Source of the DNA: Sipunculus nudus
Lineage: Eukaryota; Annelida; Sipuncula; Golfingiida; Sipunculidae
Direction of reading: 5' to 3'
Assembly: GCA_026874595.1 (NCBI GenBank)
Contig: CM049307.1
Location: 43,096,362 to 43,160,361, forward strand
Length of the DNA stretch: 64,000 nucleotides
Part shown: one piece after another, positions 29,095 through 63,420 of the stretch
How the letters are laid out: each line of letters begins with the position of its first letter
How positions within the stretch are numbered: the stretch's first letter is position 1
Made by a program: the position numbers and the translations under genes
The notes under the pieces: model-generated
Told to the model about the DNA's origin: nothing
Seen by the model: the letters and a program-made list of their open reading frames with translations, nothing else
Database searches by the model: none

Positions 29095-29530
29095 AATTGG
29101 ATAACATTTGAAATTTGAACTTAACGAAGGGAAAACTATTATGTAATGAAGAACAATTTCAATAACAAGAGGTGCCGGTTTTTTTATTCATTTATTCAAT
29201 AACTATGCATATGCCATTTAACCAAACGGCCTATATTACAAGTCTGCTATAAAAGTGCTCTGATTTTAAATTAAGTTTCATCCTTAGATCTATACATTCT
29301 GATATAAAGGCAGAGTTAAGAAAGGATGGAAGTAATATATATATTAATACTGAAGGGTGTGCTATAAAGGTAACAGTGAAAGCACTCCATGGTTTATAAC
29401 TGCAACCAACATAACTGTATAAGCCTTTATGCACTATCGTCGATAAGGTAAAGATACTCCTCTAGGCGTGCCAAGACATTTCGAATTCGGTGTTGTAATA
29501 TCGAGTCTATATTTATTGAGTGTGTATTCT
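29095..29530 (-). pseudogene. C-terminal stub of a cGAS-like copy with its 3' flank
   Basis: The segment 29,095-29,530 parallels 29,787-30,240, the 3' flank and last codons of the intact copy. It contains GCGTGCCAAGACATTTCG and ATCGAGTC.ATATT.TATTGAG in the same order. Only the last ~30 codons of coding homology remain (29,430-29,530). It is a tandem partial duplicate left of the intact gene. Confidence 0.6.
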
Positions 29531-30148
29531 AGTCCTTTATCCTATAGTAAATACAGACTGTGTCTGACAATAAAGGGACCTCACTCGTAACTAAGAATAC
29601 GTGATGCTGTGAAAAATACTGACATTCCCTTTTAACAAATGGTAAGAAATAATACGTTATATTTATATCAGACATAATAATGCCTACTGAACGTTTCCAT
29701 GTTAAAGCTCTTACAAAATGTAATTTTGCAAAAACATTGAACCTGAATTTTGGAACAAGGGACAATTTACTGACTGACAATGAGTATTTAATTTGATAAC
29801 ATTTGAAACTTAAATCATAAAGAAGGAAATGATTTGTACGAGTCTGTTATATAATTGCTGTCACTTCAAATCAAGTTTCATCTATTAAACTATACATTCA
29901 AATGTAAAGGCAGAATTCAGAAAGGATGGAAGGAATATACATATATGCAGAAAGGGACACCAAAAAGGTGACAGAAACAGTCAAAGCAACGATAAAATAC
30001 TAACATTATTGTATAAGGAGACATCGTGATCATATGGTGGCAGTTTATACGGTGGATTTAAAAAAATATAATCCTGAATAACAATTAAGATAATACTAAT
30101 AGAAGAAAAAGCCGTCTGTTCAATAAGCAATACAGCCGTCATCATCGA

Positions 30149-31711
30149 TTAGGTAACGTGACTCTTCTGAGCGTGCCAAGACATTTCGGTATTATGATAT
30201 CGAGTCCATATTGTATTGAGTGCGCATTCTAATCCTTTAGCAAGGACCTTCAATAAGTCTGTAAATGACACTACTCTACCTTGCAGAACTGGTCGGACTG
30301 CGGTGTGGAAAGTATCCACCTCACCGGGAGGGAAAAGTTTATTTTGTTGGGGAAATAGAAGAGAAGCTAAAGGGAGCGCTTCGCATGTGGCATCATAAAT
30401 ACATTTCTTCGCAATATCTTCGTTAGGTAGTCCCTCTTGATCTTTTCTGCAAGCTTTCGCAAGGGTTTTACATATTTTGTCTATGAAGACTCGGAGTACG
30501 AGGCAGGCGTTACTTTCCACAAAAGGCATGATCATGTCAGGTATGGTTGCTTTCAATCCCTTGGGAAGAAGATTCATCGCTGGTGATGGTCTCAGTGTTA
30601 GACTTTTTCTGAACTTCCTCAGAAAATTAACTTCTTCTCTCAGATGGCCTCTCTCTGTGTATTTCAGTAAGTTATTTTCAGGGATGAAGTACATTGGTAA
30701 GATCTCTTCTGAAAGACACTTCAGCAGATCATCAAGTAGGTTCAGCATACACTCACCAAGATTCCCCTTCCTCCACATGTCTGTCTTGTTCTCGCATGAC
30801 CAGAAAAGGACAGTCTTACTGTGATAGGTTGTCACTGCAAGTTCTCTTTTCCCTTTTATTTCCTTCAGAACGTCATAAATGATGAGCTTTATCAATGAAA
30901 AACATTTTCTCTGCAGTATCGACATGGCTGTTGTCAACTTCGCCTCTGCCAGGGAGAACGAAAGTCGCCAGTGTAGATCAGGATCGCCATCTGGTGGACT
31001 TTTTGGAACGACATGAAATCCTCCTTCTTTAATTTCAGACAGTGTCTTCTGATCCGGCCAACCCCTTTTTCTTCTGAAGAATAAATTCGCTGATTCTGGC
31101 CAACCCTCGGCTTCTGCCGCTGGAACGCAATCAAGACTCAGTGGAAAGAACTGAATCTGTAAAGGATTCACTAGCCCCTCGATTTCCTGTACATCTCGAT
31201 CTTGGGCAGCAAGAGTCAATATCACCTGATGAACAAGCAGGGAAACCTTCTTTTCTTTTCTTAATACGTGTCCGGGTAAAAGAAACTGAAGGTCCGTTCC
31301 TATATGATCCTTTGCTTTTTCTGGAGACAGAACTCTCTTTACTCCACCGTCTGGAAACTGTTTTTCTGTGACCCAAAGGGTGAACATACTGGACATAAAC
31401 CCTCCTTCGATAATAATATAACCAGGGTATCCTTCAGCTGGTTTCATAAGTTTTTCAGTATTGTACTTTGAGAAAACTGTCTTGACCTGTCGGAACAAAA
31501 GATCAATGTCAACCGACTCCATGCGATGACTACAGACGACGCTGCCATCTACGAAGCTTCCAGTTATAACCTGTGTTGTTCCGGCATCCTGTGGTTTCTG
31601 CAAGGCCTGGTTAAGCTCTAGAACTCCCGGTATTAGCTGGCCATAATTTTCATGATCAGGATACCACGAATCTAACCTTTCCTTCAGAGACGCAGAGTCA
31701 CAGGCTGCCAT
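30149..31711 (-). CDS. cGAS-like receptor / Mab-21 domain protein, intact
   Basis: 520 residues in one coding exon; the ATG at 31711 is the first in frame (upstream codons start only at a TTG and cross a likely acceptor near 31,720). Family hallmarks, numbered from this Met: G51-S52 of the nucleotidyltransferase loop in GSFVDGS; catalytic acids D68 and D70 in SVDIDLLF; a third Asp at 194 in SLDCVPA; WRLSFSLAE (248-256), the Mab-21 signature; TTYHSKTVLFWSCE (294-307); and YFIPENNLL (341-349). The cGAS zinc-thumb pattern H-x5-CC-x6-C is not seen. Enzymes of this group sense nucleic acid or other ligands and make cyclic dinucleotides for STING; the ligand here is unknown. A C-terminal extension of about 130 residues follows the Mab-21 region. 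A conserved non-coding 5' exon ends near 32,098. Confidence 0.85.
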   Translation of the reverse strand: MAACDSASLKERLDSWYPDHENYGQLIPGVLELNQALQKPQDAGTTQVITGSFVDGSVVCSHRMESVDIDLLFRQVKTVFSKYNTEKLMKPAEGYPGYIIIEGGFMSSMFTLWVTEKQFPDGGVKRVLSPEKAKDHIGTDLQFLLPGHVLRKEKKVSLLVHQVILTLAAQDRDVQEIEGLVNPLQIQFFPLSLDCVPAAEAEGWPESANLFFRRKRGWPDQKTLSEIKEGGFHVVPKSPPDGDPDLHWRLSFSLAEAKLTTAMSILQRKCFSLIKLIIYDVLKEIKGKRELAVTTYHSKTVLFWSCENKTDMWRKGNLGECMLNLLDDLLKCLSEEILPMYFIPENNLLKYTERGHLREEVNFLRKFRKSLTLRPSPAMNLLPKGLKATIPDMIMPFVESNACLVLRVFIDKICKTLAKACRKDQEGLPNEDIAKKCIYDATCEALPLASLLFPQQNKLFPPGEVDTFHTAVRPVLQGRVVSFTDLLKVLAKGLECALNTIWTRYHNTEMSWHAQKSHVT

Positions 31712-32097
31712 CCTCAGATCTACACCATAAAATAACAATTTATAGACGACGAATAGGTTTATATTAAATAGATGTATGATTGAAATAAGGTTATGATTAG
31801 AAATATAATATTTAGTGATAAGGGCTAGTTACATAACTATTTGTCCAATAGATGAAAATGGCTATAAATTTATGCAGGGTATATAGAATCCATGAACGTC
31901 TATGGATACTTATTAGTGGTGTCATCTTAGGTTCTTCATAGACTAATGTACATGCAGGCCATTAAGAAAATATAAACATCTAATGACACGTATTACAGGT
32001 ATAAACTAATGACCTACATGCAATAAAATTATTATATGATTTTGAAAGTATATCACATTTGAGCCGAAAAACGGCAGAGAAAATATTCTTTCCTTAC

Positions 32098-32300
32098 CTG
32101 CAAAGAATTCTTACAGGAAAGTAATGTTATGTGTAATGGGACGCCAACATTGACTCGTCGACTGCCTTGCCTATAAATGTGGCCTCCAAGCTAAAGTGTC
32201 CTTTGGGACTTTATGACTTCTGAACTTTGATATTTCTACGCGACACATACTTAAGATTTACACAACGAAGGATTGTTTTGAACACAACGTTTAACTTAAC
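32098..32300 (-). other. Putative non-coding 5' exon and promoter side of the intact cGAS-like gene
   Basis: Minus-strand TTTGCAG|GTAAGG gives a strong donor with the exon end at 32098. The same exon, donor and the following ~380 bp of intron recur at 39,949 upstream of the second copy. Conservation covers ACTTTGATATTTC and ATACTTA.GATTTACACAA upstream. The transcription start is not determined. Confidence 0.5.
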
Positions 32301-32899
32301 CAGTGTTACATTATAAATCGCTCTAAGCCTATAGCTTTATAGCAGGTAAATAACCGTGAGCCTCAGTTAATGGAGGATATGTTCCAAGGTGATCTGATTA
32401 GGCGATAAAAAATAAAAGCGTTTCTATAGCATGCGTGACGCATGCCGTTTATATTAATAGAAAAACCCACGGATACAACCACGGTCCATGAGTCCTTCAG
32501 ATTATAAAGAACCTTCTTGTCCCGATAACACGGCATTGTTTCAAGAGTTGGGACTTAGGAGTGTATCCTTAAATAAATAGTGTAATAAGTAAATAAAAGA
32601 TTCGTTAAACTTAAACCAGTGCCTGTTTTAGTACTGCATGAATAAATGAGTAGGCATTAAACTTGGCCGGATGTGTAACTACTTCGGGCCATTATTGCAG
32701 TCATATATAGCCAAGATAGGAACGTTTCTGTGTCTATATATATTTTCTGTGGAATGAGATTACATACCAGAGACGAGGAAGAATATCATTTGGAGACAGT
32801 CAAATTCAACCAAACGAATATGTCCATAGACATATAAACAACCTTGATCTGTTCATCTGAAGATTAGACCAACCAACTAAAACGAGCCAATATAAGGAA

Positions 32900-35130
32900 A
32901 AATCAAGTATGACATTAATACACAAAATACAACTATGGTTTATTTTAGGATGCCAGTCAATGTGTTCGTTCTGTTAAAGAAAAGGTGGCATTTTGAAAAA
33001 TCTACAACTACACTACAACAGTCATCGTCAGATTATGCTCCAAGCATTCATGATTTAGTTTAGAAAAAATAATCAATATATACTAAACAACTGACTGCAC
33101 ACCGGAAAGTGTGTCAGATTGTAATAAAGCAATATGATGAGTTTCTACAGTGACACACACACACAGGTCCAAATGGCAAAGTCCATTTAATATATGTTGA
33201 TAAGCAAAGAAAAAAAGCTTAAAAGCACTGATGTATGTATGTGTCCATTGCTTCAACCTGCAAATATATCCGCCTAAGTTGGGCTCATTAAATAAAGTTC
33301 AACAGCCCCTTGTTCCAAATATATTTTATAGAAAATCCATAATAACATGCAACAAACTGATGCAAACACATGATAACATTCTAACAGACGCATGAAATGT
33401 GGAGACGGCAAATCTGTTTATAACAAATACATGAATCTGTTAGCTCCAGTAAATATACTTAGGTTTATTCGTTTGGGTTTATTTTGTATATACTTATCAG
33501 ACAGGTCTTCAAATACAAATACTCCTTATATATAGTCATGAGTCATAGTCATAATCATTTCAATGATTAATTATATAAAGCCGTGAAACGCATTTTTTAG
33601 ATGATACGGTTAACTTTTGTTATCAACATTTTATCTGCTACAATAATTACAACTATTTGGAATTAATAATTAGAAAATAGTATCATTTGTGCTAGTGCCA
33701 GTGAGCACTTTTGTTATAATTGTGTCTCAATGACTGTTCTAGGAAAACCAAACATGCATGGATAGCCAAAGATATAGTTTTGGACAGTTTGGTCCCTGGC
33801 ACATATCAAATCCTTGTCTTTTGAAGCATGTGGGTCGATGCTTTTGTAAAAGCAATAGGCTAGTCAGCTAAAGGGTAGAATAACGTTTCAGGTAGTTTTA
33901 TCTGGGCCACAACGTGGCCAAAGTTAGACCTTATCTCACTATGGGCTACGTGTTAACTATAAAACCTGATTGTCTTACATTGCTAATATGAGTTTTAGAC
34001 CAGCTGCAGCTTGTTTCCCGGAATTTTGCATACACCCCAGACATCAAAATTACAAGTGTGCATATAAAAGAACGAGTACATTGCATAGTGTGGTAGAATC
34101 TTAACTAGATAAACTTATTTGCAAAGTCAAGTATTTATTATGTACACTGAATACGAGTAAATTGCCTTTCTGTATGAATACATCAAAGGACACTCAATAT
34201 TATGTATTCCAATAAATTTGAATAAGAATAATGAAAATGAATACCTCATGTGTGTTTCGTGCAAGGCATATTTTAATTTGTTGTTCATGTTTCTCTGTTC
34301 ATTAAGAATAATCAAAATATTTGAAATGAGCCTAGAATACGCAAATAGAATAATAAATCACTCGGGCCAAAAGCTGATGTATCTAAGAATGTTTATTATA
34401 TAAATCGGTTATGCAGCTGCATTTGAGTTTGGACCTATTCTTAGCAAATAATTCCAATGTTATAATGAACCCTTCCAATGAATTATTCAGGACAATAATA
34501 TTAATCCCCATAGTTAAGATTCATTAAGTAATGTTGATGTGAATACACATAAATTATTTAAAGTACCATAACTGTATGTGTATTTCTTATTACACGTCTT
34601 GATGATAACCGTTGTTTTCCGTTCTTGTAAAGCATTTACGTCTTCTGTTTTATATTGGAGATTACTAGGTGTAACAGTTAAATCCTAAATATTTTAAAGG
34701 TTATAAATTCTGGTTGTTTTGGAATTCAATGTACCGAACATTTCGTGATTGGAAACCACCAGTTCTGTCTTCGAATATTTACCTTCATACCAAAGATATT
34801 AACCCTACTAACTTTTACCATATTATTTGTAAGCACAGCCTCAACCCCAGTAGCTCGAGTTGGCTGCTTTACTCCATGGTATTTTTTTACGAAAGCCTTA
34901 AGGTGGATTACACAAGGCCAATCTTTGATTCAATCACCTCGTCAATATAAATTTATCGTATAAACAAAATCAAATGGCAATGCCAATTCACAAAAGAAGG
35001 TGCTGTTATCTGTATATAAACTTTTAACCTATTTATTAACCGTCACCGGATCTTCTCTTATTTAATTCTTTTGCGTATGCCACGGTTTCGTGCATTATGA
35101 CAGCGAGTCAATATGTCATTAATGGTGCAC
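32900..35130. repeat. Segmental duplication, left copy
   Basis: Collinear with 59,460-61,205. Shared anchors include CAACTATGGT followed by GGATGCCAGTC, GTGCTAGTGC.AGTGA, GAATACGAGTA-AAT and the block starting GGTGTAACAGTTA. Divergence is high, with many indels. It lies between the intact gene and the first decayed copy and has no gene of its own. Confidence 0.8.
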
Positions 35131-36150
35131 TCAAAATAATGTTGTTACAAGAATCTTTTACGGTATCTTCTAAGGACACATTTTTACCTTGTAGAAGAAG
35201 ATGGATATTCGGATTGGAAGATATCTTCTCCACTGTGGAAAAGTTCCTCCTGGTTAGAAAATGAAGGGATAACTTCAGATATTGCATCCTAAATACAATT
35301 CTTCGCCATCTTTTTGTTAAGCCTTGGTCTCCACTGGACGCATGAGTTTTTAGATCGTACGCTCCCTACAAATTTTGGGTACTGTGGAGGCCTTGGACGT
35401 CGCAAAATCGAGTCAGCCCATCTTGGTCCTTAATGCATGCCTTGGCTATGTATATCCCGATTTCACTGAATAATTTCCTTAGCACGCGACACTTATATTC
35501 TTAGTTTTTCCGGCCTAGGTATGGCAGTGATTATAAGAGGTGTTTCAAATCATGCGGCAAAAAGTCCAGTGGGGTTGAAGTATCAAGGGCTAGAATCTAC
35601 CTGAATAGCTTCGGAAGACCGACTTCCTCTCTCAAATTTTCCTTGTGCCCGTTTCTCAGCAGATTAATTTCATGGATGAAGTACATCTCTTCTGAAAGAC
35701 ACTTCAGCAGATCATCCAACAGGCTCAGCATACCCGGACTCCCCTCCTCCACATGCCTGTCTTGTTCTCGCATGAACAGAAAAGGATGGTCTAACTCTGG
35801 TAGGTAGCAACTGCCAACATTTAATTTTTTTCTTTTAAATTATTGAGTACCTCGCGAGCTCCGGCCAGCCTCCTGCTCCTGCAGCGGAACAGGGTTAAGG
35901 GCAGTGAAAGATACTTATTGTCTGAAGGTCAGCTAGAGTTACAGAAACTTTGAGAACTAATTGAGACACTTTTCCATCCTTGTACCCTGGTAACACAAAC
36001 GGTTCCTAATCGGTATACATATGATCCTTTGCTTTCTCTTGTGACAAAACGGTTCTGCTCACGCCCTTTGCCAAGTCGTTTTTCTTCCGGAGAAGGAACT
36101 TATTTGATATATACTGGTTTCCGGATACATCAGTTACAACATACCCTAAG
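35120..36150 (-). pseudogene. Decayed cGAS-like copy (first)
   Basis: Homology to the intact gene runs in order on the minus strand. 35,140-35,310 matches its C-terminal coding part. 35,640-35,820 matches the region around ATGAAGTACAT and CACTTCAGCAGATCATC. 35,850-36,150 matches the part before WRLSFS and the region with TCTGGAGACAGAAC. Frames are broken repeatedly, about 300 bp of unrelated sequence interrupts at 35,320-35,620, and the nucleotidyltransferase core is missing. The same interruption is present in the copy at 61,590, so it predates the block duplication. Confidence 0.75.
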
Positions 36151-36584
36151 GCAGTTTGCAAGCCATATAATACAAACAACCATCAGGAAAGGTCACCCAG
36201 ACGATAAAGCACATTATCAGGCCCCACGAAAACAACCTTAGGATCGTGAAGGAAACCGTGCACAATACAGCGTTGTCTCATCATTCAGGGACAAAGACCA
36301 TTTTCCGGGGTACCGTTGTAAGGAAAAGACAAATTGACTAACAGGAGAATTGGTCGACAGCTAGAATAAAGGTCTGGAAATGCTGATTTCGGTCGAATTA
36401 CTTGCGTTTCATGGAACCTGCAGCACATTCGAGAAAAAATGTACGAACAATCCAGGAAGTAAAATAGGACTTTTAACTAGAATATTTCATCATGACAAGA
36501 CAAAAGCCCCTTCCGGTGATAAATGTATTGAAGAGGCCCATAAACGCATTATTTTCTGTCAGTTCCCATCTACATTTTGCATGT

Positions 36585-36800
36585 TCATTTAGTATGAAAT
36601 GCGGGCTCATTGGTAAAGTGATGCCTATAACATATTGTGTTAAAACCAAACTCCATTGCCTTTGCAACCGTAAAACCCCTATGTAATCCGTTTTCCCTGA
36701 AGGGTTGGCACTTGAAAATATCCCCCTCTCCCGGTGGGGGAAAAAGAACCTTGTCTGGGAAATGGCAGGATAGCCTCTGGAAAGATATCACGACCAGAAT
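36585..36800 (-). pseudogene. C-terminal cGAS-like fragment
   Basis: The minus-strand frame reads LFPPPGEGDIF and later AKAMEFGFNTICYRHH. This matches LFPPGEVDTF and AKGLECALNTIWTRYH near the end of the intact protein, with similar spacing. No other part of the gene is recognisable around it. Confidence 0.55.
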
Positions 36801-37900
36801 CGTACACATCCAAAAATGGGTTTGACAAGTCAACTGTTATCGGTCAGCGGTAAGACTGATCCTGTGCGTATATTTCGTGAACAGAGTGCGTTGATTGATG
36901 TAGAAAGTTATCAGAGGTATCTCCCCTGAAGAATGACATTTCGATCGAAAAATAGTAAGGGCTGAAAGAAATTTAAACCCACGTGCAATATAATAGATTC
37001 CTCCATTGACAGGGTCTTCGTCGATGAAATATATGATTTGAGATAATATTCGGCTTCTAAATGGATCATTTCTTTTTGTCATATGATTTGCAGAACGCAC
37101 GTAATAAATAACGTGCACCACACCCGTGTGGTGTCAGCGATCGGCCTTTTCAAACGAAAGACGTATTCGCGGGTATACACAACATCAGCTATAAATTTTG
37201 TTTCTGAATACTAAAGAGTTGAAGATCTTTATTGAATTTGATCAAGGTAGATATAATGTATACAATGTATTTCCCCCTGCTTTAAGTAAAAGAGGGGAAA
37301 TTGATTTGCACAAGCCTGTAAATCTATGCCAGGTTTCCTTTTCCGGATAATAATCTTCAATTTTGCTACAATTTCTATTCCAAGGATTATCTTGGATATG
37401 ACGCTTTTAGTTGCCCTACCTTTGTTGAGAGACTATCTGCGAGCAAATATGATAATGGGCATCAAACTTTCGTTTCCTAATGTATCTAAACATATCTTTC
37501 AATCAAATTTGGTACAGTGCTTCCATTTACTAGGCTTTATTCCCATCTTGGCAAGGATTACTTTTGTGGGGAAAACTGTATTGATCGAATTTCTGTGAGC
37601 AAAAAAGATTTGTACATCAAACGTTCGTTTCCTAACATTAACTTAACATAAATCACGAGAATTCATTCAAATTACGTAAAATGACTGTTATTTAAAATAT
37701 CTTGGATGGAATTGCTTTTTACTGGCCCCAACTATTATGACTCTCTGCTGCCAAAAATTAAAATGATTTGTTTTCCACTTTGCACTGTAATGTACATAGA
37801 CAATCAAAGACATTAAAAGCACTGTCTCAAGATTGCAACCAATGTAAATAATATAATACTAACATTTTTGTATAGATAGACATTGTGAAAACCATCTGTT
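36800..37900. other. Intergenic between cGAS-like relics, no gene seen
   Basis: AT-rich, with short open frames only. From about 37,830 similarity to the 3' flank of the intact gene begins. Confidence 0.35.
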
Positions 37901-37924
37901 CAATACACACAAGATACCCGCTAT

Positions 37925-39467
37925 CGTCGATCAGGTAAAGCGACTTTTCAGCGTGTGCCAAGACATTACGGTCTTGTGATATCCAGTCCATATTGAATTG
38001 AGTGCGCATTCTATTGCTTTGGCAAGGACTTTCAGAAAGTCTGTAAATGACACATTCCTCCCTTGAAGAACACGTCGGACCACGGTGTGGAAAGTATCCA
38101 CTTCACCGGGAGGGAAAAGTTTTCCTTGTTCTTGAAATCGAAGAGAAGGGAAAGAGAGCGCTTCGCATGTGGCATCATAAACACATTTCTTCGCAATACC
38201 TTCGCAAGAGTTTTACATATTTTGTCTATGAAGACACGGAGCACTAGGCAGGCGTTTCTTTCCACAAAAGGCATGATCATGTCAGGTATGGTATCTTTCA
38301 GTCCCTCGGGGAGAAGATTCACTGCTGGGGAGGGTTCGAGCATTAGAGTTTGCCTGAAAGTTCTCAATAAATAAAATTCTTCTTTCAGATGGTCTTTCAC
38401 TGTGTATTTCAGTAAATTATTTTCAGAGATTAAGTACATCGGTAGGTTCAATTCTGAAAGACACTTCAGCAGATCATCCAGCAGGCTCAGAATACACTTA
38501 CCAAGATCTCCCATCATCCACATGTCCGTCTTGTTCTCGCATGACCAGAAAACCACCGTCTTACTGTGGCAGGTAGTCACTGCAAGTTCTCTTTTCTTTT
38601 TTAGTTCCTTCATAACGTCGTAAATGATGAGCTTCGTCAATGAAAAACATTTTCTCTGGAGATTCGACATGGCTGTTGTCAACTTCGCATCTGCCAGGGA
38701 GAACGAAAGTCGCCAGTGTAGATCAGGATCGCCATCTGGTGGACTTTTTGGAACGACATGAAATCCTCCTTCTTTAATTTCAGACAGTGTCTTCTGATCC
38801 GACCAACCTCTTTTTCTCCTGAAGAATAAATTCGCTGATTCTGGCCAACCCTCGGCTTCTGCCGCTGGAACGCAATCAAGACTAAGTGGAAAGAACTGAA
38901 TCTGTGATGGATTTACGAGCCCCTCGATTTCCTTTTCATCTCGATCCTGAGCAGCAAGAGTCAAAAACATCTGATGAACAAGCTGGGATACCTTTTGGTC
39001 TTTTCTTGATACATATATGGTAATAGAAATATAAGATCCGTTTCTATATCATCCTTTGCTTTCTCTGGAGACAAGACTCTCCTTATCATCCCGCCCGGAA
39101 ACCGTTTTTCTGTGATCCAAAGTTTGAACAAATCTGATATGAACTTGCTGCCGGTGACATCGATCATAACATAACCAGGGTATCTTTCCGCTGGTTTCAT
39201 GAAGGTTTCAGTATCGTATTTTGACAACACTGTCTTTATCTGTCGGAACAAAAGATCAATGTCAGCGGACGCCATACGGTGACTACAAACGATGCTACCA
39301 TCAACAAAGCTTCCCGTTATAACATGTGCTGTTTCGGCATTATGTGGTATCTGCAAGGCACGACTCAGTTCAAGAACTCCTGGTATAAGCTGGCCATAAT
39401 TTTCATAGGCAGGATACCATGACTGCAGCTTTTCTTTCAGAGACGCTGCTTCACAGGTTTCCATCAT
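37925..39467 (-). pseudogene. Second cGAS-like copy, full length but with two frame-shifting lesions
   Basis: Closely related to the intact copy over its whole length, with start MMETCEAASLKEKL at 39467 behind an acceptor TTTTCAG ending at 39485. GSFVDGS, ADIDLLF, the SLDCVPA Asp, WRLSFS and the HSKTV block are all retained. Lesion 1 is a 1-nt deletion near 39,015, after the residues FLLP, which ends the frame at 38961. Lesion 2 is a 37-nt deletion near 38,205 between GCGAAG-like repeats, which pushes the C-terminus out of frame (stop at 38032). The original frame can still be followed to a TGA near 37,940. Sequencing error could explain the first lesion but hardly the second. Confidence 0.8.
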
Positions 39468-39948
39468 CGGACAGTTGTTGAAACCTGAAAACAAATGGTG
39501 AAACATAAAAGCAAGTGGTATAAACTTTATCACCAGAGATGCAACGTCTTGCGTTGCAATTCTTATACCTACACCATAAAATAACAATTCATAGACAACG
39601 AATACGTTTTACCTTGAAAAGATTTATGACTGGGATAGGGTTATGATAAGAAATACAATAATAAGTGATAAGGACTAGTCACATAAATATTTGTCTGATG
39701 GAAGAAAACTGGTATAGATGTATGAGGATATACAGCAACTATAAACATCTACGGATACGCATTATTGGTTTCAACGTAGGGTCTTCCTGGACTTAATCTA
39801 TGTACATGCAGGCATGTAGGAAAATAAACATCTACAGATACGCGTTATAGGAGTCAACTTATGAACTATATACAATGAAATCATATAATGATTTTGAACT
39901 TATATGAAATATGCGCTGCATAAGGCACGGAAAACATTCTTTCCTTAC

Positions 39949-49980: not shown

Positions 49981-49984
49981 GCTA

Positions 49985-52900: not shown

Positions 52901-54072
52901 AGCCTCGCTTTCACCTTTAAACTGATTTCAGCTGCCCTGTGGATAAGGGCATTGAATTCATGTACGGCACCATTAACCGAATTTTCATTGGTATCATAAT
53001 CTTTTGAGCAATAGTAATCAATGTCTTGTTTGATAGCTGACAATGCTAGATGAAAGGCTGGACCACTTAGTTCCTGCCATACAAACTGTTTTGTATGTTC
53101 TTGAATATGCGACTCACTCTCAAGCAGTCTTGTGAAAGGTAGTATTTCCATATTACAATCCAGTGTAAAATTTAACATACAGTGATCTGAAAATAATGAC
53201 AACTTATTCACAGTAAGAGATGAGATATAATAAAAAATATCGCTGTCTATAATCACATAATCTAAACAACTGGGTATCTTCCCATTGCTACTGTAGCAAG
53301 TAAAATTACCAATTGAGTCACCGAGCTTACGTCCATTAGATACACAGAGGTTTAGAAGAGATTTTCCATTGTTGTTTAATGGTTTACTATCAAGATTACT
53401 GCGTTTGATTTGCTGGTCAACACAATAATTGCTAGGGAGAGGCAAAAATTTAAAGGAGTCATTTTGGATAAAATCAGCATTTATATTAGTATGGGCATTC
53501 ATGTCTCCCATTATAATACATTTACCTCTTTGGCTAGTGAACTTGGTGATTTCAGTAGTAATAGAGGAAAATTGATCAATTTCACTCGAAAAAGTTGAGC
53601 CTTCTGGAGGAATATACACATTTGCTATATAAATATCATGATTCCAGCCAAATTTTGTACCATTCAATTTAATCCAAATAGTGTCAGGGCTGGTAGATGG
53701 AATATAAGTATAGTTTTTAGAAATAGATTTAGGTATGTAAACTGCTACACCTCCATGGTGTCTGGTAGCCTTTGGATTTTTTGGTCTGCATTTCTTTATA
53801 ACTTCATATCCTTGAATGTCCATATTATCATCTGGGCTTGCATGTGTCTCGGAGAGGCCTATTATATGATATTTTGATAATATATGAATAAAATCATTAT
53901 CAAGAAATTTATTTTCACTTATGCCAGACATTATACTTCTTAGAATAAACACATGTATATCCCTATTTAAACTAATCATGATTTGTCCTCCAGGATAACA
54001 AAATTCAAAAGTCGATACATTCAAAGAATAACTGAGTTTACAATTGCTGGTACACAAATAATGATGTTTCAT
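49985..54072 (-). mobile_element. Second LINE, EN-RT, nested near the L1; 5' limit unknown
   Basis: The minus-strand element ends at about 49,985 with an ATTCA/ATTCAATTC simple-repeat tail rather than poly(A). Its 3' UTR (50,020-50,220) holds about five copies of a 30-35-bp unit (AATACATGA.ATCACAGGTAACA). A 3' microsatellite tail is usual for CR1/Jockey-group and related LINEs. DNA from 54,073 to 54,847 may be its 5' UTR; a (CATA)n-rich stretch lies at 54,205-54,275. I found no target-site duplication. Confidence 0.75.
50446..54072 (-). pseudogene. EN-RT polyprotein of the second LINE, one nonsense codon
   Basis: 54072 to 50446 is one frame of 1,209 codons broken only by the TAA at 52822-52824. 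The nine codons between the two open parts are in frame, so nothing else is wrong. Endonuclease: GLSETHA, GDMNAHTN, SDHCMLNF. Reverse transcriptase: GKAGGKDGF, NNYRGITVTSC, CFIDFQKAFDRVWH, GVKQGCVLSPTLF, LLYADDVILIS, YKYLGITIS. The C-terminus has a CCHC-like knuckle (CNFCPNEIENELHFLMRCP). Motif style places it in the I/Jockey/CR1 part of LINE diversity; the clade is not fixed. It is far better preserved than the L1 around it, so it is probably younger. Confidence 0.85.
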
Positions 54073-55329
54073 AATCTGTAAAGTGAAATCTCATGTAAAA
54101 GTCTCATTCCCTTTGTCGCTTGCTGATCTGATCAATATATAACATTCAGGTGAAAAAGTAATATTATAGAATTAGCCAGGGGTACCATAATATTGCAATT
54201 CATACACACACATATACATATACATACATATGCATAAGCACACATACATACACATATATATACATATACATACATAAATTGTACCCGTGATAGTCACTGG
54301 TGTTTTATTTATATTACTATAAACTTTGCTCTAAATCACTGACCCAGAAAATAGTCTCGGGTTAGGCGAAATAATGAACCCCATAAATGTTATTGACATC
54401 TTGAAAACTTGGCCAAAAATCATAACATGTAGGAAAAAAAAAATAATAAAAAAAATTAAAAGGATATCAATATGTATCAATGACAATATCAGACAGACGT
54501 ACTTTCCATGATATACAGCAGTTAATTTCCCTTAAATTTGTAAATAATAAAAATAGAACGATCAACCAATATTTCAGGATATGATATTTAACTAAACTTT
54601 GAAATATAACACTACTACTGGTACTAATAATAATGTCTATGGTAGTAAAGTATAGTTTATTTCCCAATTTAAACAGTAAACGCTATAAGTTAACGGTGCT
54701 TTTTTAACAAAAAATGGAGTTGACAAAGGGAAATGACATGAAAACAGTTTTTACTGTAACATAATAGCACACTAGATTTATGTCATATTAAAAAGAACGT
54801 ATAATACAGACCAGAAAAAGGAACGTTTGCCTTCTCAGGTCACTCATGTTAAAATGGGCACTCGGTAAAACCCGGAATTTCCGAGGATATTCCGAGATCC
54901 CTCGGAATTAAAGTTTGAGCCATTTCCCTCGGCAGAGGATCCCTGACAGTAGAAAAAAGAACCCATACCTAAATAATGGCAATTATCTTCCCATATATTC
55001 AGGGTTCCGTTCGAATCTTCGATTTATTAAGGTACAGCGGACGATTTTTTTAACATCTTTTCGAACAGCCCTGCACGACTGCAATATTTCCTTATATTTT
55101 GGAAGCGTCTGCAGAATTCCCGGAGAATCAAGACCCACGGCGACCGGGCCCACTCAAAACCACACAAGTAAAAAACTGCAACTTTCTCCATTCCTGTTGA
55201 CAAATAAATTATTACCTGTTGCATTACATCCTTAATTCGTTTAATTCTTCTATATCGCATTATTTACATTATGATTTCATATATTAGGTCTATAGATAGT
55301 AGAGTATAATTGTGTAATAAATTGTACAA

Positions 55330-55381
<52 letters not shown>

Positions 55382-55424
55382 ATATTTAAAATCATGTATC
55401 AGTATTAAAAAATTATGTTAAACA

Positions 55425-55486
<62 letters not shown>

Positions 55487-55888
55487 TTGGCTGTATACCT
55501 AATCATATATTAGTTGATATATTTGTCACCCAGTGGTTATGTGTGTGTTAATTTATAACTTTATTATTTTATTTATGTATTTGTGTTATTTTTACTATTT
55601 CTCTGTTAGAACCAAAATCATATTTCATTGTGATGCACATGGCTGAATCATATAAATTTAACCTTGCAGCATAAGAAATTATAAGTAATAATGAATATGT
55701 AGAAAATGATCGACCACATGCAGGCAACCAGTCACTCGGATACTGAAAACAATTTAAGGAAACCCTACATGACACAGACGTCTAGGACACTTTAAAATTG
55801 CCTGTAAAGAATCAAAACACCGGGAAATGGGGATACAATTTAAGATTTACATAAGTTAGCAATGACAATAACATTCAGATTTTATTTA

Positions 55889-56413
55889 CAGGCACACAAC
55901 ACTGGGTTGCTGTAGTGAATGAGAAAAATGAAATACATATTTTAGATAGTGCCGCTACAGGGGCGCTTACAACCAGTCTTAGAATACAATCGTCTAGACT
56001 ATATGGGAAGCCACAGTTTACTGAAAGTAAAGATTCAAAAATCCAACAACAAAAAATAGGCAGTGTGGACTGCGGTTTATTTTCAATAGCAAGCATTGTG
56101 GAATATATGTTTACCAAGATATTACCTACAACCACACAATACAACCATAATAGACTAAGAATCAATTTAATAAACTGTTAAGAAAAAGGAGCCCATTTCA
56201 GCCCATTTCCAAAAAAATCACTTACGAAATGCATCCCAAAGCCAAAATTTAATGAAAATATTTTATTAGGCATTGCCTTTGAATGTGGACTTTCAGATGA
56301 ATATGACAATCAAATTCAGTGTGGTAAATGTTTTAACTGGTATCACCTCCGTTGTGTTAAATTAGACAGAGTACCAAAAAGCAGCCTTACGATGTGTGTA
56401 AACTGTAAGTAAG
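55889..56413 (+). pseudogene. Ulp1/C48 protease C-terminal part joined to a PHD-type zinc finger
   Basis: The frame opens after an acceptor-like TATTTACAG at about 55,889. It shows the C48 core: His in THWVAVVNE-type context (HWVAV), Asp in HILDS, and Gln plus nucleophile Cys in QQQKIGSVDCGLFSIA. After an in-frame TAA at 56179-56181 the same frame continues to a PHD-like finger: CGLSDEYDNQIQCGKCFNWYHLRCVKL and a final CVNC, stop TAA. C48 proteases of this type cleave ubiquitin-like modifiers, and Ulp1 domains are common cargo of Mutator-like and KDZ transposons. The N-terminal half of the protease is absent. Confidence 0.65.
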
Positions 56414-56439
56414 GTTTATAATGTACAAAGTATTCACTG

Positions 56440-56940
56440 ATTTTAACTGTTTGTTGCATTTGTAAATATTTCATACAGGTATAACGTGTAGTCCATATGA
56501 TCATTGCAATTTTCATTTGTAAATATTTCAAACATTTTCACTTGGTATATTATGTATTTGATGACTTTTTCACTGTTCATTATGTAAATATTTCATACAT
56601 CAGCACCTTGTATAACATGTACTTCAGGAACATTTCACTCATCATTTGTAAATATTCCATACATTGTCAGCTGGTGGAATATGTATTTCAAGATGATGAT
56701 TTTACTGTCAATTGTACTTAATGCATAAAATAAAACATGGTGGTACTTGTAATTCATCTTTTTACTTTCCATTTGTAAATAATTCATATCTTGACACCAG
56801 GTATAACATTTTTTTTCTTTTTCATAATACTTGGGTATTTTAAATTCAATATTTCATAATGGTATCAGGTGTATTTCATGAGGCTTAATTTACTCTCAAT
56901 TTGTACATGTTTCATTTGATTATTATGGTTCAGTTGTTAA
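56440..56940. repeat. Minisatellite, about 68-70-bp unit, about 6 copies, inside the transposon
   Basis: Units begin CATTTGTAAATATTTCATACA and continue with TATAACATGTA.TT or similar. Divergence increases to the right. Confidence 0.7.
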
Positions 56941-57698
56941 AAAATGATTTTTTCAAATGTGTTCCTTTGTTCATTGGACTAATAAAAATAGAATTTTAAT
57001 AATGCCAGTGGCAAATGACGACACAGATACTGCTGTACGTAGCCTCCCTGTCCAAATGTCATGCCATTTCCATTAATTGTAGAATCTCTCTCCATGCCCT
57101 GTCCCTTTCTTTAGTTGTGGCCTTCCACAATATTTCATGATCTTATAATCAGTAAGAGGAGTATATCTGATAAATCTACAATTCACTCTCCTTACTGGCC
57201 ATATCCCTTTTATCCAGGCCTGTCAGCTGTTTATACTCTCCAAGAATCCGCATGAAACCACCGGATTTAGGTATGATCCACCATAAACATGGCCGTCGTC
57301 CCGGGCCGATCAGATCTGGCTCGGAAAACCGTAGAATACGCCTTGAAAAGTCGACGATTAGAACGGAACCTTAAAGAAATGGGAAGTTAATTATTCATTT
57401 TATAGATATGGGTACTTTTTTTCCTACTGTCAGGAATCCTTTTCTGAGGAAAATGGCTCAAACTTTTATTCCAAGGAATCTCGGAATATCCTCGGAAATT
57501 CCGCGGAAATTCCGGGTTTTACCGTGTGCCGTTAAAATGTTTGTTTTGAGCGATGATCAGGGTAACCCACCAAGTCTCTGTTATCATAAGAGGAACAGAA
57601 GTGCTGCCCTCTTGTGGACACTTTAAAAAATAAAGTCTTGGAGCGAATACTTTGATCCCACATTCACAATAATGGTTCAGAGTTTGTCTTGTGGAAAC

Positions 57699-58655
57699 TT
57701 AACTTCCCGGGCGTTCGATCTGGACCTCTTTTCCATCAATTATCAATCGACCCCTCCAAAATCGGCATTTAAGATTGTTTCCGTGAGCTTTCTTCATTTG
57801 GGGGACGGCTTTCTTTTTTAATTTGTAATCGTCACTAGTCAAGTCTTCCACAAAGAAGACTCGACCCCTGCCGTCTTCATTGTCCTTTTCCCTTTGTGCT
57901 TTAAGTAGGCCGTTTCTTTGTGGCCGGCTGAACAGCCTGGCGATTATGTGTCGCTGGCCTTGGCCCTTTCTACCGGTACGGTGGGCATGTTCAATGGAGC
58001 CTATTATGGTGTCAAAAGGTTTGTCACCAAGCAGCCTTTGTTCTCTGATTACCTGGGCCACAACTTTCCGGCAATCTTCGCCCTTTTGCTCAGCTATACC
58101 AACCAGTCTGATGTTATATTGACGTCCATGTCTTTGTATATCTGTTAGTTTTTCTTTAACAACGCCAAGTTGGTCATCCTTCTCTTTGTTTTCACTTCTC
58201 AGTCTTTCAATCTCACGTTTCAAATTTGTGTTTTCTGTCTCTACCTTATCCATCCTACTCTTTAACTGCTGTACTGTGTTTTGTGTAAATTCAAGACTTT
58301 CCTTTGTTGACTCTAGTGTACCGTTTAACTCTGTATAATCAGTTTCTATCTTTTCTATATGTTTCCTCAGGCCCTGAATGTCACTCTGTACGGACTTTTT
58401 AAAAGACCCGATAGCCTCTGTTAATGTTTTTTCCAGCTCACCACATTTCTCGTCTATTGTCCTGGCTATATCTTCGCTTTCCATTGCCCCTGTCTGTTTA
58501 CTGACCGAACCGGTACGTGCTGGCGTGACACCTTTTGATTTTGATTTTGACTTTTCCTGTCCGTGTTCTAGATATTTTTCAATAGATAACTGACCTGTTT
58601 GTCCCTAATCACTTGTGCTTAATCCTTTTGACCTTGTTGTTGGGCCTTCTGCCAT
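57699..58655 (-). pseudogene. L1-type ORF1 (RNA-binding chaperone) with one premature stop
   Basis: The frame starts at an ATG at 58655 (MAEGPTRSKG) and is open to the TAA at 57699 except for one TAG at 58605-58607, codon 17. The longest clean part starts at the Met at 58484 (261 residues). It shows a heptad coiled coil (about residues 1-115 from there), then an RRM-like part with YNIRLVGI, then the L1 C-terminal domain with IGSIEHAHRTGR, HIIARLF and LKCRFWRGRLIIDGK. ORF1 proteins trimerise and coat the element RNA. The minus-strand position upstream of ORF2 fits a bicistronic L1. Confidence 0.8.
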
Positions 58656-58746
58656 TCCTATATGGTTCAAACAGATTTTTTTTAAGAGAGCTCCACACGT
58701 GCGTCCGCTTTTTCCGCCATCTTGACCGGAAGACGATCACATCTTT

Positions 58747-59170
58747 GCAGGTTTCAAAAATTGAGAATAAAATGTGTAAAAATTAAAAAATAAGTCCAGG
58801 TGGCACCACCAGTCTGCTTAAACTGATGAAACATTCCATGACCAATAGCCATGCAAGTAATCATGGTTATCAATGCATTAGTTGTTACGATACTTGAGCT
58901 TTTGTATCAAATTTTACATTATTCCGGGGGGGGGGGGTTATTTTTTTTTATCCCCAAAGCTCAAAGACTATTCGTAACAGAGACCTAATTCGAGTATTCC
59001 AAGGAGATTTTTACGGACCTATCTGGGTGTCAAGACAGAAGATTTCAGGTTCAGCGGTTACGATTTGTGCCCTTTTAACGGACAGACGACCGGATGGCCG
59101 GAAGACCGGGCGAACGAGGGACAAAGAGTGATTGCTCAAGCTCAGATGACTTACAGTCAGCTGAGCTAAT
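58747..59170. repeat. Degenerate tandem repeat array, right of the L1 insertion
   Basis: Collinear with a unit at 40,975-41,170: GGTGGCACCACCAGTCTGC matches GGTGGAGTCACTAGTCTGC, and ATCAATGCATT.GTTGTT recurs. The right part ends with CGGACAGACGACCGG-type sequence. Together with 40,530-41,582 it was one array before the L1 arrived. Confidence 0.75.
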
Positions 59171-59459
59171 AAACGATTATCTTAGATCCATCGCTCTCTG
59201 GCCGTTAAATGACGACCCCCTGTAGGCAGTTACTTGGCATATGTGGTAAATACTTAAGACCATTATGCTCTAAATACCTAAGATATAAAGGCGCCCGAGT
59301 CTATAGATATTTTCTGCTTGAACTCAATATTTTCCAGACATTTGTTAAGGTTTCAGTTGGAGAGAGACAACTACAATTTTATGAATATATCCATAAATAT
59401 ATAAACCAGACAGGAACGGGTGAGTTAATATAATAAGAAATGAATAATGATCATAACAG

Positions 59460-61205
59460 GTGAGGGGGTCCAAATGCAACTATGGTCTAAATGGGGATGC
59501 CAGTCGGTGTTTTCGTCCAGCAGTACGGATCTTTTAATGTAAAGCTAACATTTAGAAACACTTGTTATATGAAACAAAACATACAAGAACAGATGTCTGT
59601 ATGTGATCATTGATTCAACCCTAAAACGTATCTGAGGCTCACTTTATACAAAATCGATTGGAGCAGCCCAAAACCTTTTCTAAGCTCCATAGAAAATAAT
59701 GACTTGCAACAAACTCACGGCTATTCTAACAGATGCATAGATTGTCTAGACAGCAAATATGTTCATGTATGTGTACATGTATGTGTCTCCATATTTAAAT
59801 AAATTCACTAAGATTTTACAATTGTCTTCCAATACCAATAAAAATACTTCCAAATGTATCTGTGCATGCATTCTCTGATTTAAAATAATTTATTTCAGTA
59901 AGAAAGCATTATCTTTTTAAGATGATACTGTTGTTTTAATGAATATTAACTTATGTTATATTTGCCACAATATTTATCTAAAATTTTGATAACCAGTGTT
60001 ATTTGTGCTAGTGCGAGTGAACACCGATAAGTGAAGTACTGCTGTGGTTTCTATACATCTGTTGTGGATTGTTTTCGTTATAATTATGACTCACAGGCTG
60101 TTCTTGGAAACCAAACAGGTAAGGACAGCAATAGATGTTTTATTTTAACAGTTTGCTCATTAGCACATATCAAATCTTTACGTTTTAGGCATGTGGGGTG
60201 ATGTAGGGTAAAAGCAAGAGTTTAGTCAACTAAAGAGAAGAAGGAAATGTTTCAGATAGTTTAACCTGGACCACAAAGTGTCTCAGGTAACACCAAATTT
60301 TGCTATGGGCTAAGGAGCCATTGCAAGAGATTTGTGAACTTTAAAATTGATTGGTTGACGGCTCACATAGATTTTAGACAATTTTCAGCTTCAGTTTCCC
60401 AGATTTTTAATATATCACAGACTTAAAGATTAAACATATTCAGAACATTACTGAATGTGCTAGATGTTCACAATAGTACCAAACGTCAGGCGTTTCCTAT
60501 GTATACACAAATACGAGTACATAACCTTTCTCTATGAATGCGAATACGGACACACAATATTGTATTCTCAATACATTCAAATACGAATAATGAATACCAT
60601 ATCCCCATGTTTGTTTTGTGCAAAGCATGTTTTAATGTTATATCCATGTTACTTCTATATTTTCATTAAACCAACATATCACCAATGAGCCTAGACTACG
60701 TAATTAGTATAATAAATCATTCGGGCGAAAATTAAAGCTTATGTATCTTAGAATGCTTATTTTTTACATCGGTAATGCAGCTGCATTTTAGGACATGGAC
60801 CTATTCGTCAGTGCTTTCTGTTCTTGTAAAATGTGTGGGTCTTCTGTTTAATATTGGAGAAAACTGGGTGTACAGTTACTCCTAAATATTTGCAAGGTGG
60901 GAAATTCTGTTTTTTTTTTTGGAATTAAAGTGGTTCAGTGTTTGGAACCGCCGTGATTGGAAACCATGAGTTCTGTCCTTCGAGTAATTACCTTCATACC
61001 TAAGATAATAATTCTACAAGTGATGTATCTGTGGTTTGTTCTAACTACCGTGTCAATGAAATTTACCAAATGATCTGCAAATCAACCTGATTGATAGATT
61101 TTTTTATCTAAAAACCATACTTTGGTCATACCTTTTTTTCAAACCTAGTGCCTCGAATTGGCTGCTGTACACCAAAGCATTTTTCACAACAACCTAACTT
61201 TGGAT
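59460..61205. repeat. Segmental duplication, right copy
   Basis: Counterpart of 32,900-35,130, lying left of the second decayed cGAS-like copy just as the left copy lies left of the first. It contains extra short insertions (for example near 60,025-60,075). Confidence 0.8.
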
Positions 61206-61211
61206 TACACA

Positions 61212-61545
61212 CCGGCTCCAGTGGTTCAGAGGTAAATCACAGGACTCAAAGCAGGGAGGTCGTGAGTGTAAGTCTCAGCCGAGCAGCGGTGAGATTTCTC
61301 ACGGTCGGTCCCCACTCTTGGTGAGTCCTCTGCAGGCTTGACGGAAAGGCAGTTCCCCATGGATGTGTATCACTCACAAACGAGTGCGTCTTGGCGGGGG
61401 GGGGGGGGGGGGGGGGGTTATGACCCAGCAATGGGGATGATTACACATCCACGACCGAATGGTGCGGTAGACATCTGGACTTGGTGACTCAAGGATATTA
61501 AATACTATAAAGTAAGCGAGTGCAACTGCCCTGTCGAGTATACAC
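61212..61545 (+). mobile_element. tRNA-derived SINE
   Basis: The head CTCCAGTGGTTCAGAGG resembles box A (TGGTTCAGAGG), and GGTCGTGAGTGTAAGTCTC keeps the spacing and half of box B. A G run of about 22 bases (61,397-61,418) interrupts the body. The duplicated left segment lacks it at the matching position (after GGATTACAC, 34,915), so it arrived after the duplication. Confidence 0.6.
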
Positions 61546-61589
61546 TCTAAATAATGCTATAACCAGGATCTTTACGGTATCTTCACATG

Positions 61590-63420
61590 ACACATTTTCA
61601 TCTTGTAGATGATTTCGGTTGGAAGTTAACTTCTCCACTTGGTAAAAGTGCCTCCTGGTTAGAAAATAAAGGGATAACCTGCATCCTTAATACAATTCTT
61701 AGCCATTCTTTCTTTAAGCCTTGGTCCCGCCTGGACGCACGGATTTTGAGATCGTACGTCCCCTGTGTACTTTCGGTGCCGTGGAGGCCGTGTAGAGGTA
61801 GAGGAAAATCCTAGGTTAGCACCAGCCGTACGAGCACCTACGGCCTGTTTGCGTCCATATTTTGTGCCGAATCTTACTTCTTGTGCATGTCCTTTTTTGT
61901 GATATTTCGAGGGCTGAGAGAGGCTAGTCAGCTCATCTTAGTCTCTCATGCTAGAGATATCCCGATTTTTTAAAATAATATTCTTAGCAAGTGGCACCTT
62001 TCAATTAGTTTTCCATCTTATGTATTGCAGAGGTTAAAGGGACATAATCAGGAGCAATATTATGCCTATTTTTTCACACTTTCAATTCAGGTTTGCTTTA
62101 TACAAAAGTTTCCCAGCAAGACCATCCCGACACAGTCAAATTACCTCGCATGTGGCTGTTCAACGCCTTGTTATCGCTCTGCGTGTTTGTAAACACAGTC
62201 CACGTGTGTCTGTTTGCCATAACAAGGCTCCATGACCAGAGGTCCGATTGTGAGCCGCAACACACGAAGTTTCAGGCAGCGGGAACATGTAATACATTTT
62301 TGGGACCTAGACAGTCAGGGCATCTCATGATTGGCAGGTGTTCTGGCTCAGCAATGCTCAGAGTCCAACGCGCTTTGTTTATGTTGATACCTTTGATCGC
62401 GCCCGGTCCACTGTTTTTACAGGAATAAGCAAACGTTTTAAGGGCAATGTTTTGGCAGGTATAAATTTATTTTAAAGGGAAGAAGTTAATTTTCGTGTTA
62501 ATTCAACATGCTTGATTGGGCCCCTTTAAGGAATGTTTCTAATCATACGGCAAAAAGTCCAATAAGATTGATCAAGTGTTGGAGTCTGCCTGAATAACTT
62601 TAGAATACCTCTCTCAAATTTCCTTGTACATGTATCTCGGGAGAGTATTTTCATGGATGAAGTAAACCTCTTCTGGACGACACTTCAGCAGATCATCCAG
62701 CAGGCTCAGCATACACTCACCAAGATCTCCCCTTCTCCACATGTCTGCCTTTTTCTCGCATGACCATATAGGACGGTCTTGATGTGGTCGGTAATTACTG
62801 TCAAATTTTCGTTGTTTTCTTTCAATTTATTGAGAACATCGGGAGCATGCTGCTACTGCACAGGGACACAGTAAAGGGCCAATGAAAGGAACTTAATGTC
62901 TGAAGGGCTGATCATCTGATACGTCTTTTTTATCACCATTGCAGGCTTGGTCAGCTAGAATAACCATAAATTTGTGAAACAACTGAGACATTTTTCCATC
63001 CCTCCTTGTGATATAACCTGGTAATAGAAACGTTTCTTAACCATTATATATATGCCCTTTTGCTTTCTCTGGTGACATAATGGTTCTGCTCAGTCCTCTT
63101 CCCAAGCCGTTTTCCTTCCAGAGAATGGACTCATTTGATATACCCCGGACTCTGGTTACATCAGTCATGACGTACCCTACGACGCCTTTCCCTTTTTTCA
63201 TCATACGTTTAATCTAGATTTCTTTGAAAACTTCCTTGATCTGTTGAAACTGCAAATCAACGTCAACAGTCCTAATACTGCATATTACGATCGCGTCTGC
63301 AAAGCTTCCAGTTATGGTATGGGCTGTTACCGCACACTATGGTTTCGAAAAAGAGTAGGATTAAGCTCTAATACACGTATGAGAAACTGGTTTGCATTTT
63401 TCATTATGATCTTGATATTC
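61590..63420 (-). pseudogene. Decayed cGAS-like copy (second)
   Basis: Matches the intact gene in order. 61,600-61,730 is the C-terminus. 62,640-62,800 holds the CACTTCAGCAGATCATCC block. 62,830-63,200 is the middle. 63,215-63,420 is the nucleotidyltransferase core, with AAATCAACGTCAAC and GCAAAGCTTCCAGTTAT. Multiple frame breaks and a transposon at 62,038-62,525 make it dead. It keeps more of the 5' half than the copy at 35,120 and shares with it the extra block near 61,720-61,830. Confidence 0.75.
62038..62525. mobile_element. TTAA-flanked MITE in the decayed cGAS-like copy
   Basis: TTAA stands at 62034-62037 and 62526-62529. The ends AGGGACATAATCA and (other strand) AGGGGCCCAATCA are imperfect inverted repeats. 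The first decayed copy has an empty site at about 35,530. TTAA targeting fits piggyBac- or Kolobok-type families. No transposase; the 111-codon open frame inside has no recognisable residues. Confidence 0.7.

Follow-up and report, generated by a model that had tools for sequence, protein, structure and literature searches.

A tandem cluster in which intact and broken copies of one gene lie side by side raises two questions, i.e., in which order the copies were gained and lost, and whether the surviving proteins are cGAS-like sensors, as the first-pass annotation had proposed. The window analysed here is a stretch of 64,000 nt from a single assembly of a 1.43-Gb genome.

Layout of the Cluster

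Six copies and fragments had been described on one strand of the window, and a tblastn search with the intact ORF, together with self-comparisons, recovered all of them on the minus strand: gene A, pseudogene B, relics C and D, and two stubs (Table 1). The matched regions are 30152-31711 for A, about 37934-39464 for B and about 35091-36146 for C. Strong collinearity among the copies was found in the self-comparison. The cluster does not end at position 63420, where it had been closed, since copies E, F, G and H continue past the right edge of the window within a further 56 kb. F and H are intact, G has one stop codon, and E is decayed; the tally for the cluster is three intact genes, five broken copies and two stubs.

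Table 1. Positions of the features in the window.
Feature	Positions	Strand	Description
Gene A	30149..31711	minus	single-exon intact ORF, 520 codons, no lesion
Pseudogene B	37931..39587	minus	1-nt deletion ~39020, 37-nt deletion ~38204, 96-nt 5' insertion
Relic C	35060..36148	minus	nonsense codon 36008-36006; 214-nt, 9-nt and 1-nt deletions common to D
Relic D	61543..63380	minus	lesions common to C, nonsense at 63039-63037
Stub 1	29050..29629	minus	last ~40 codons and 3' flank of A-type copy, tandem to the 3' end of A
Stub 2	36154..37779	minus	3' flank and last codons 36154-36807; 5' flank 36813-37779
5' flank of A	31720..32639		homologous to 5' flank of B
5' flank of B	39570..40458		homologous to 5' flank of A
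3' flank of relic C	32650..34914		homologous, in several pieces, to D flank
3' flank of relic D	59222..61211		homologous to 3' flank of C
Spacer between B and D halves of unit 2	40459..59221		18.8 kb, tandem repeats near both ends
Alike tract, codons 301-340 of A	30692..30811	minus	~120 nt, unusually similar across eight copies, relics included
A-B near-identical tract	30960..31160	minus	196/200; partner ~38705-38905

The copies are tandem paralogues of one clade with both intact and pseudogenised members. It should be noted that the tree took in only A, F, G and H from the cluster and used 17 of 20 rows (L010, L037 and L040 were omitted), while B, C, D and E were placed by DNA similarity. The sequences show that whole units, consisting of the gene and its flanks on one strand, are homologous to each other; retrocopying was rejected because the flanks are homologous between copies.

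Both stubs are weak at the protein level (tblastn: 29456-29629, E 0.009, for stub 1; 36588-36807, E 0.014, for stub 2), and chance similarity was ruled out by matches at the DNA level. Stub 1 matches the end of A with 79% identity over 105 nt (E 1e-17), and blastn pairs 29436-29572 with 30141-30273 (74%), 29237-29423 with 29837-30017 (72%), and 29050-29145 with 29738-29838 (68%). Stub 2 and its 3' flank match copy E (71% over 412 nt, E 5e-58). The earlier description of two C-terminal stubs is too narrow for stub 2, which has kept its 5' flank too. Its 3' and 5' flanks match the E, F, G and H units and meet at ~36808/36813; therefore, most of the intervening coding sequence appears to be deleted, and stub 2 appears to be an E-H-type unit without it.

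Duplication and Decay

Pseudogene B carries the two lesions previously ascribed to it, both of them deletions, and, additionally, an insertion at the 5' end. Loss of a splice acceptor at the 5' end of A, compared to B, was considered and dropped after a six-way alignment, in which A has AG at the putative acceptor position of F, G and H, and the extra sequence is that of B. The 5' flanks of A and B are 75% identical over 873 sites (K2P 0.30). The excess of amino-acid changes in B (46:19 versus 27:23, p = 0.08) is not significant.

Relics C and D have in common three deletions, two insertions and one nonsense codon. Relic C is without its N-terminal ~105 codons (junction at ~36150). The strong decay reported for D was confirmed, with a tblastn match at about 62632-63354; however, D is not simply truncated but interrupted, with ~490 nt unmatched to C followed by a homologue of the C-terminal part of C at 61543-62036. 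A+C is collinear with B+D, which, along with the lesions common to C and D, confirms the proposed duplication of a gene-plus-relic block; a relic adjoining a gene was copied together with it. Given the common lesions, death of the relic most likely preceded the copying of its block, although C-D conversion might, in theory, have transferred lesions once the block had been duplicated. One single block event is likely, while other histories are also allowed, because the distances are uneven: they are 0.22-0.45 for the C/D pieces, with K2P 0.26-0.45 in the three pieces of the 3' flank, and 0.50 for the short A/B 3' flank (83 sites). The spacer inside the second unit holds two LINE-type elements with ORFs at 41875-45578 and 50446-54072, both on the minus strand, containing RVT_1, zf-RVT and Exo_endo_phos domains.

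The losses are graded: G has a single stop codon, B has two frameshifting deletions, C, D and E are relics, and the last grade consists of deletion stubs. F, G and H form a younger set. It should be kept in mind that the lesions of B and G are known from one assembly. The locus may be read as an ordered record: the lesions common to C and D put the relic ahead of the copying of its block, the neutral distances of the two rounds of duplication are unequal, and one putative conversion tract could be located.

Probable Sequence Exchange between Copies

Two stretches suggest that the copies seem to exchange sequence, and conversion between neighbours would homogenise short stretches. The identity of the A-B tract (Table 1) was matched by none of 2000 shuffles, and we infer gene conversion in this case. 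The second stretch comprises codons 301-340. In window scans of A versus F, G and H, the signal was strongest with windows of 30-40 codons and fell off at 20 codons (126, 83 and 426 of 5000 shuffles, significance being without correction for the number of pairs). Within the F/G/H group, the best synonymous windows were each reached by at least 567 of 5000 shuffles, and conversion is not claimed there.

Selection at the DNA or codon level within the cluster, instead of gene conversion, is a possible but rather doubtful cause of the likeness at codons 301-340. Similarity there is star-like, as this explanation would have it, with 23 of 28 values at 0.80-0.92 (two 20-codon windows in 14 pairs, identity by window having been computed for 14 of the 28 copy pairs), and few informative sites are incongruent (2 of 5 for A/B/G/H, 0 of 4 for A/B/F/H, and 1 of 5 for A/B/F/G). 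Conversely, the stretch shows no rise in synonymous-codon identity to 16 distant paralogues, either for A (96/258 versus 324/901, p = 0.71) or for H (79/243 versus 337/901, p = 0.18), frame-breaking gaps are present inside it in relics C and D, and a search of positions 28500-64000 returned no Rfam matches at gathering thresholds.

In chicken antibody genes, pseudogenes act as a gene-conversion reservoir. By analogy, the dead copies of the cluster might not be inert but undergo gene conversion with living ones over the Mab-21_C core (codons 301-340), serving as a homogenising or reshuffling reservoir for one fixed part of an immune-type protein; we consider this improbable.

Domains, Active Site and Possible Function

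Gene A carries the domains Mab-21 (PF03281, E 1e-14) and Mab-21_C (PF20266, E 5e-19), so that the expected Mab-21 assignment of the 520-residue ORF stands; the scores for the pair are 68.7 and 55.3 bits versus a cut-off of 24.1, and in F and H both domains are above the curated cut-offs as well. The source genome contains at least 95 Mab-21_C matches, and proteins from 16 loci outside the cluster were examined. A first structure model, based on eight sequences, was unusable, its N-terminal half being too poor. The subsequent model has a cGAS-type fold over the nucleotidyltransferase core and the helical bundle, with the provision that its alignment included cGAS-like paralogues, without which the N-terminal half is unreliable (mean pLDDT 47.6). 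Assignment of these proteins to the Mab-21/cGAS fold is supported.

According to Li et al. 2023 (PMC9980059), the active site of cGLRs follows the pattern h[QT]GS-X8-20-[DE]h[DE]h, then X50-90 to a third h[DE]h, and known nucleic-acid-sensing cGLRs have pI >8.5. A, F and H contain the motif ITGS-X15-DIDL and fit the first part of the pattern, and G retains the catalytic residues apart from its stop. In a profile alignment, the third catalytic Asp (residue 194 of A) falls on its catalytic counterpart in MB21D2 and cGLR1; the spacing is X123 in A, X127 in F and X125 in H, outside the published range. The pI values are 7.87, 5.41 and 5.94, respectively (calculated by Biopython, with an algorithm that differs from the published one), below the value for nucleic-acid sensors. 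Using hhalign, we aligned the A/F/H profile to three canonical-looking cGLRs from the same genome over residues 190-354 only (probability 95.4, E 1.7e-8), beginning just before the third Asp, and to four longer Mab-21 paralogues over residues 203-358 only (E 5e-26). The N-terminal motif call consequently rests on the pattern and the fold model.

The dN/dS ratio is 0.19 for A-H and 0.34 for A-B, the ratio for a live and a dead copy mixing two regimes; each pair was compared over 454-503 of 504 codons, leaving out those with a gap or a stop. Purifying selection may keep A, F and H for a role in innate signalling, either as Mab-21 enzymes or as Mab-21 scaffolds, probably with a ligand other than nucleic acid.

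Two functional readings can be compared. The proteins might be scaffolds without nucleotide synthesis, by analogy with shrimp Mab21, which is reported to activate IKK-epsilon directly (PMC12928593); the near-neutral to acidic charge and the loss of catalytic residues from L018 and L020, the closest paralogues, fit this tentative possibility, whereas a protein with no use for catalysis would not be expected to retain its catalytic residues, as A, F and H do, and G apart from its stop. Somewhat less probable, and in our view unlikely, is that A, F and H are true cGAS-like receptors, with dsDNA or dsRNA as the ligand and a cyclic dinucleotide as the product that signals to STING. The motif with the third Asp, the predicted cGAS fold, the 14 matches to the STING ligand-binding domain in the source genome, and the reported expansion of cGLRs in bivalves would be consistent with such receptors, while the Asp spacing and the pI values speak against them, as do L002-L004, canonical-looking paralogues found elsewhere in the genome, with pI 8.9-9.5, and the absence of catalytic residues from L018 and L020 in the alignment. 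Charge alone is no marker of activity because L020 has pI 8.6. On this evidence from sequence, the fold part of the earlier claim holds, and the label "cGAS-like sensor" goes too far.

Interpretation of the Array

Taken together, the data make it very probable that a single divergent subfamily of Mab-21 (cGAS-fold nucleotidyltransferases) forms this tandem array, which has been shaped by birth-and-death evolution and interlocus gene conversion. Birth-and-death evolution, suggested at the outset, is backed by the lesions common to C and D and by the extension of the cluster beyond the window. We give almost no credence to the copies being haplotypes or assembly artefacts: a 10.85-kb tandem repeat of 99.87% identity on the same contig, outside the cluster, makes local assembly trouble possible, but the closest copies differ by dS 0.18-0.33, lesions differ between copies, and the surroundings are distinct at each copy.

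Comparison with Known Systems

Among the papers listed in a search of the literature, judged by titles and openings of abstracts and with few subscription papers, none dealt with conversion or with pseudogenes in a cGLR/Mab-21 cluster of bivalves. Birth-and-death multigene families and gene presence-absence variation in mussels (PMC7653742) offer a parallel, although the present data come from one assembly and not from a population; the terms Mab-21, Mab21 and cGAS are absent from the main text of that paper. By description, the cluster resembles shrimp LvMab21-1/2/3, a set of several invertebrate Mab21 proteins for which an immune role independent of catalysis has been reported (PMC12928593).

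MB21D2, an orphan whose ligand is not known (PMC9980059), is the best solved-structure match by sequence (2e-26) and the top Foldseek match (1.1e-13); it differs in that a tandem multi-copy cluster is present here and identity in the fold alignment is 18%. Residues 374-520 of A are outside the match to cGAS. With animal cGLRs (PMC9980059), the proteins have in common the Mab-21 nucleotidyltransferase and helical C-terminal domains, the TGS...DhD motif and the cGAS fold; unlike them, they have the third acidic residue at 123-127 instead of 50-90 and are near-neutral to acidic. Some bivalve genomes have >200 cGLRs, counted as proteins with putative active sites (PMC9980059). Our sequence comparison suggests that an expansion of Mab-21 genes does not have to mean more nucleic-acid sensors, given that the proteins of the cluster deviate from the published charge and spacing and that basic canonical-looking paralogues are found elsewhere in the genome. 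The array is ordinary gene-family turnover, a clean example with signs of short sequence exchange between copies.

Copies and extent of the cluster

The first-pass annotation had placed six family members on one strand of the window, and tblastn with the intact ORF of gene A recovered all of them on the minus strand: A, pseudogene B, relics C and D, and two C-terminal stubs. The ORF of A is uninterrupted, as claimed, and B carries both of the lesions assigned to it. B also has an insertion at its 5' end, which looks like an incomplete repeat of the start region, with ATT at the first start codon position. A search of the whole genome (1.43 Gb, 153 contigs; the window is C2:43,096,362-43,160,361) with A as query added copies E, F, G and H to the right; thus, the cluster comprises eight copies and two stubs in ~90 kb. 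Three of the copies, A, F and H, are intact, and the remaining five, B, C, D, E and G, are broken.

Positions of cluster members and neighbouring features (values above 64,000 lie to the right of the window)
Feature	Position	Strand	State
Tandem repeat	18754-19442		144-nt unit, 4.8 copies, 75% matches
Stub 1	29456-29629	-	tblastn with intact ORF
Gene A	30149-31711	-	520-codon ORF; both Mab-21 Pfam domains above cut-offs
Unit 1, A with 5' flank	30061-32639
Unit 1, C with flank	32650-36148
Stub 2	36588-36807	-	tblastn with intact ORF
Unit 2, B with 5' flank	37846-40458
Pseudogene B	37931-39458	-	1-nt deletion ~39020; 37-nt deletion ~38204; 96-nt insertion at start
Insertion in B	39472-39568		96 extra nt
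LINE-type element	41875-45578	-	split into several frames
LINE-type element	50446-54072	-	long ORFs: endonuclease 416 aa, reverse transcriptase 782 aa
Coiled-coil ORF	57699-58484	-	261 aa
Unit 2, D with flank	59222-63370
Copy E	70514-72020		many lesions
Copy F	81185-82798		intact, 537 aa
Copy G	98632-100209		single TAA, codon 76
Copy H	117745-119322		intact, 525 aa
Tandem duplication	125905-147604		10.85 kb, 99.87% identity

Duplication of a gene-plus-relic block

Self-comparison found A with C (unit 1) and B with D (unit 2) collinear, which, together with lesions common to C and D, bears out the proposed block duplication. The two parts are ~10 nt apart in unit 1 and separated in unit 2 by 18.8 kb of other DNA, which we read as an insertion and which contains LINE-type reverse transcriptase and endonuclease ORFs. 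The coiled-coil ORF, which we take to resemble a LINE ORF1 protein, had no Pfam match above curated cut-offs among the 25 listed. K2P distances are uneven but compatible with one block event: the 5' flanks of A and B give 0.30 (873 sites), a short A/B 3' flank gives 0.50 (83 sites), and five C/D pieces span 0.22-0.45.

In an eight-way alignment, C and D have in common 214-nt, 1-nt and 9-nt deletions, two 3-nt insertions, one of which coincides with an in-frame stop. Because A, B, F, G and H lack these lesions, the relic had most likely died already when its block was duplicated; alternatively, later conversion between C and D would have made the lesions common. The N-terminal part of C stops at the junction with the stub 2 unit, and stub 2 has E-H-type flanks on either side of the missing coding sequence.

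Probable exchange of sequence among copies

Across 1519 aligned sites, A and B have 85.5% identity, but within one 200-nt window they agree at 196 sites, a value matched by 0 of 2000 shuffles; the simplest explanation is conversion between A and B.

Codons 301-340 form a second stretch in which the copies of the array resemble each other. Two 20-codon windows were compared in 14 of the 28 possible pairs; of the resulting 28 identity values, 23 are 0.80-0.92, four, within F/G/H, are 0.95-0.98, and one is 0.75 (H-E). There, identity of the relics C and D to each of A, B, F, G and H is 0.82-0.88, compared to 0.53-0.60 outside (p <=6e-7 in 10 comparisons). In comparisons of E, the contrast is strong with A and B as partners and weak with F, G and H (0.82-0.85 versus 0.72-0.74, p 0.006-0.03). 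A and H use the same codon at 27/34 positions inside and 120/257 outside (p 4e-4); such use is not raised between A and 16 distant paralogues (96/258 versus 324/901). Only three sites dividing A/B from G/H lie in codons 296-348, with 331 outside. Scans allowing for choice of the window gave 21 (A-F), 30 (A-G), 36 (A-H) and 0 (B-H) of 5000 at 30 codons, the signal being weaker at 20 codons. A DNA search of the genome with 171 nt around the stretch as query matched eight places, every one in the present cluster. From these results, we read the similarity as probable conversion between copies. Incongruent sites are few, however (2/5, 0/4 and 1/5 in the three quartets compared), and C and D are only a little more identical to each other there than over the rest (p 0.09); both count against conversion, and the rival explanation is a DNA constraint specific to the cluster.

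Ages and selection

F, G and H are a younger set (flanks, K2P 0.13-0.26 in five pieces; coding dS 0.18-0.28), and the A/B and E-H groups have long been separate (dS 1.4-1.9, close to saturation). Pairwise dN/dS is 0.34 between A and B, 0.37-0.41 within the F/G/H set, and 0.18-0.19 when A is compared to F or H. Polarised by F, G and H, amino-acid to silent changes are 27:23 in A and 46:19 in B (p 0.08), so B leans toward relaxed constraint, short of significance. G shows no relaxation compared to H (41:25 versus 34:19, outgroup F, p 0.85), as a recently acquired stop would predict.

Genomic context

The locus is one of many Mab-21 arrays in the genome: there are at least 95 Mab-21_C matches, of which 75 group into 15 clusters with a minimum of two members (100-kb linkage), and 8 of the 95 contain a stop. 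The biggest array found, C3:64708382-65011536, has 16 matches in 0.3 Mb and several open frames >700 aa. The tandem duplication right of the window either arose very recently or is an artefact of the assembly. Fourteen STING ligand-binding-domain matches on C10 and C16, two with an internal stop, suggest several STING genes or fragments there.

The observations behind the earlier reading of a cGAS-like/Mab-21 birth-and-death array were confirmed and extended, and its interpretation was supported in part. The point of most interest is one domain segment apparently exchanged between living and dead copies. The turnover of the cluster is very legible, yet an event of an ordinary kind; expansion of cGAS-like receptors is already known in bivalves (PMC9980059).
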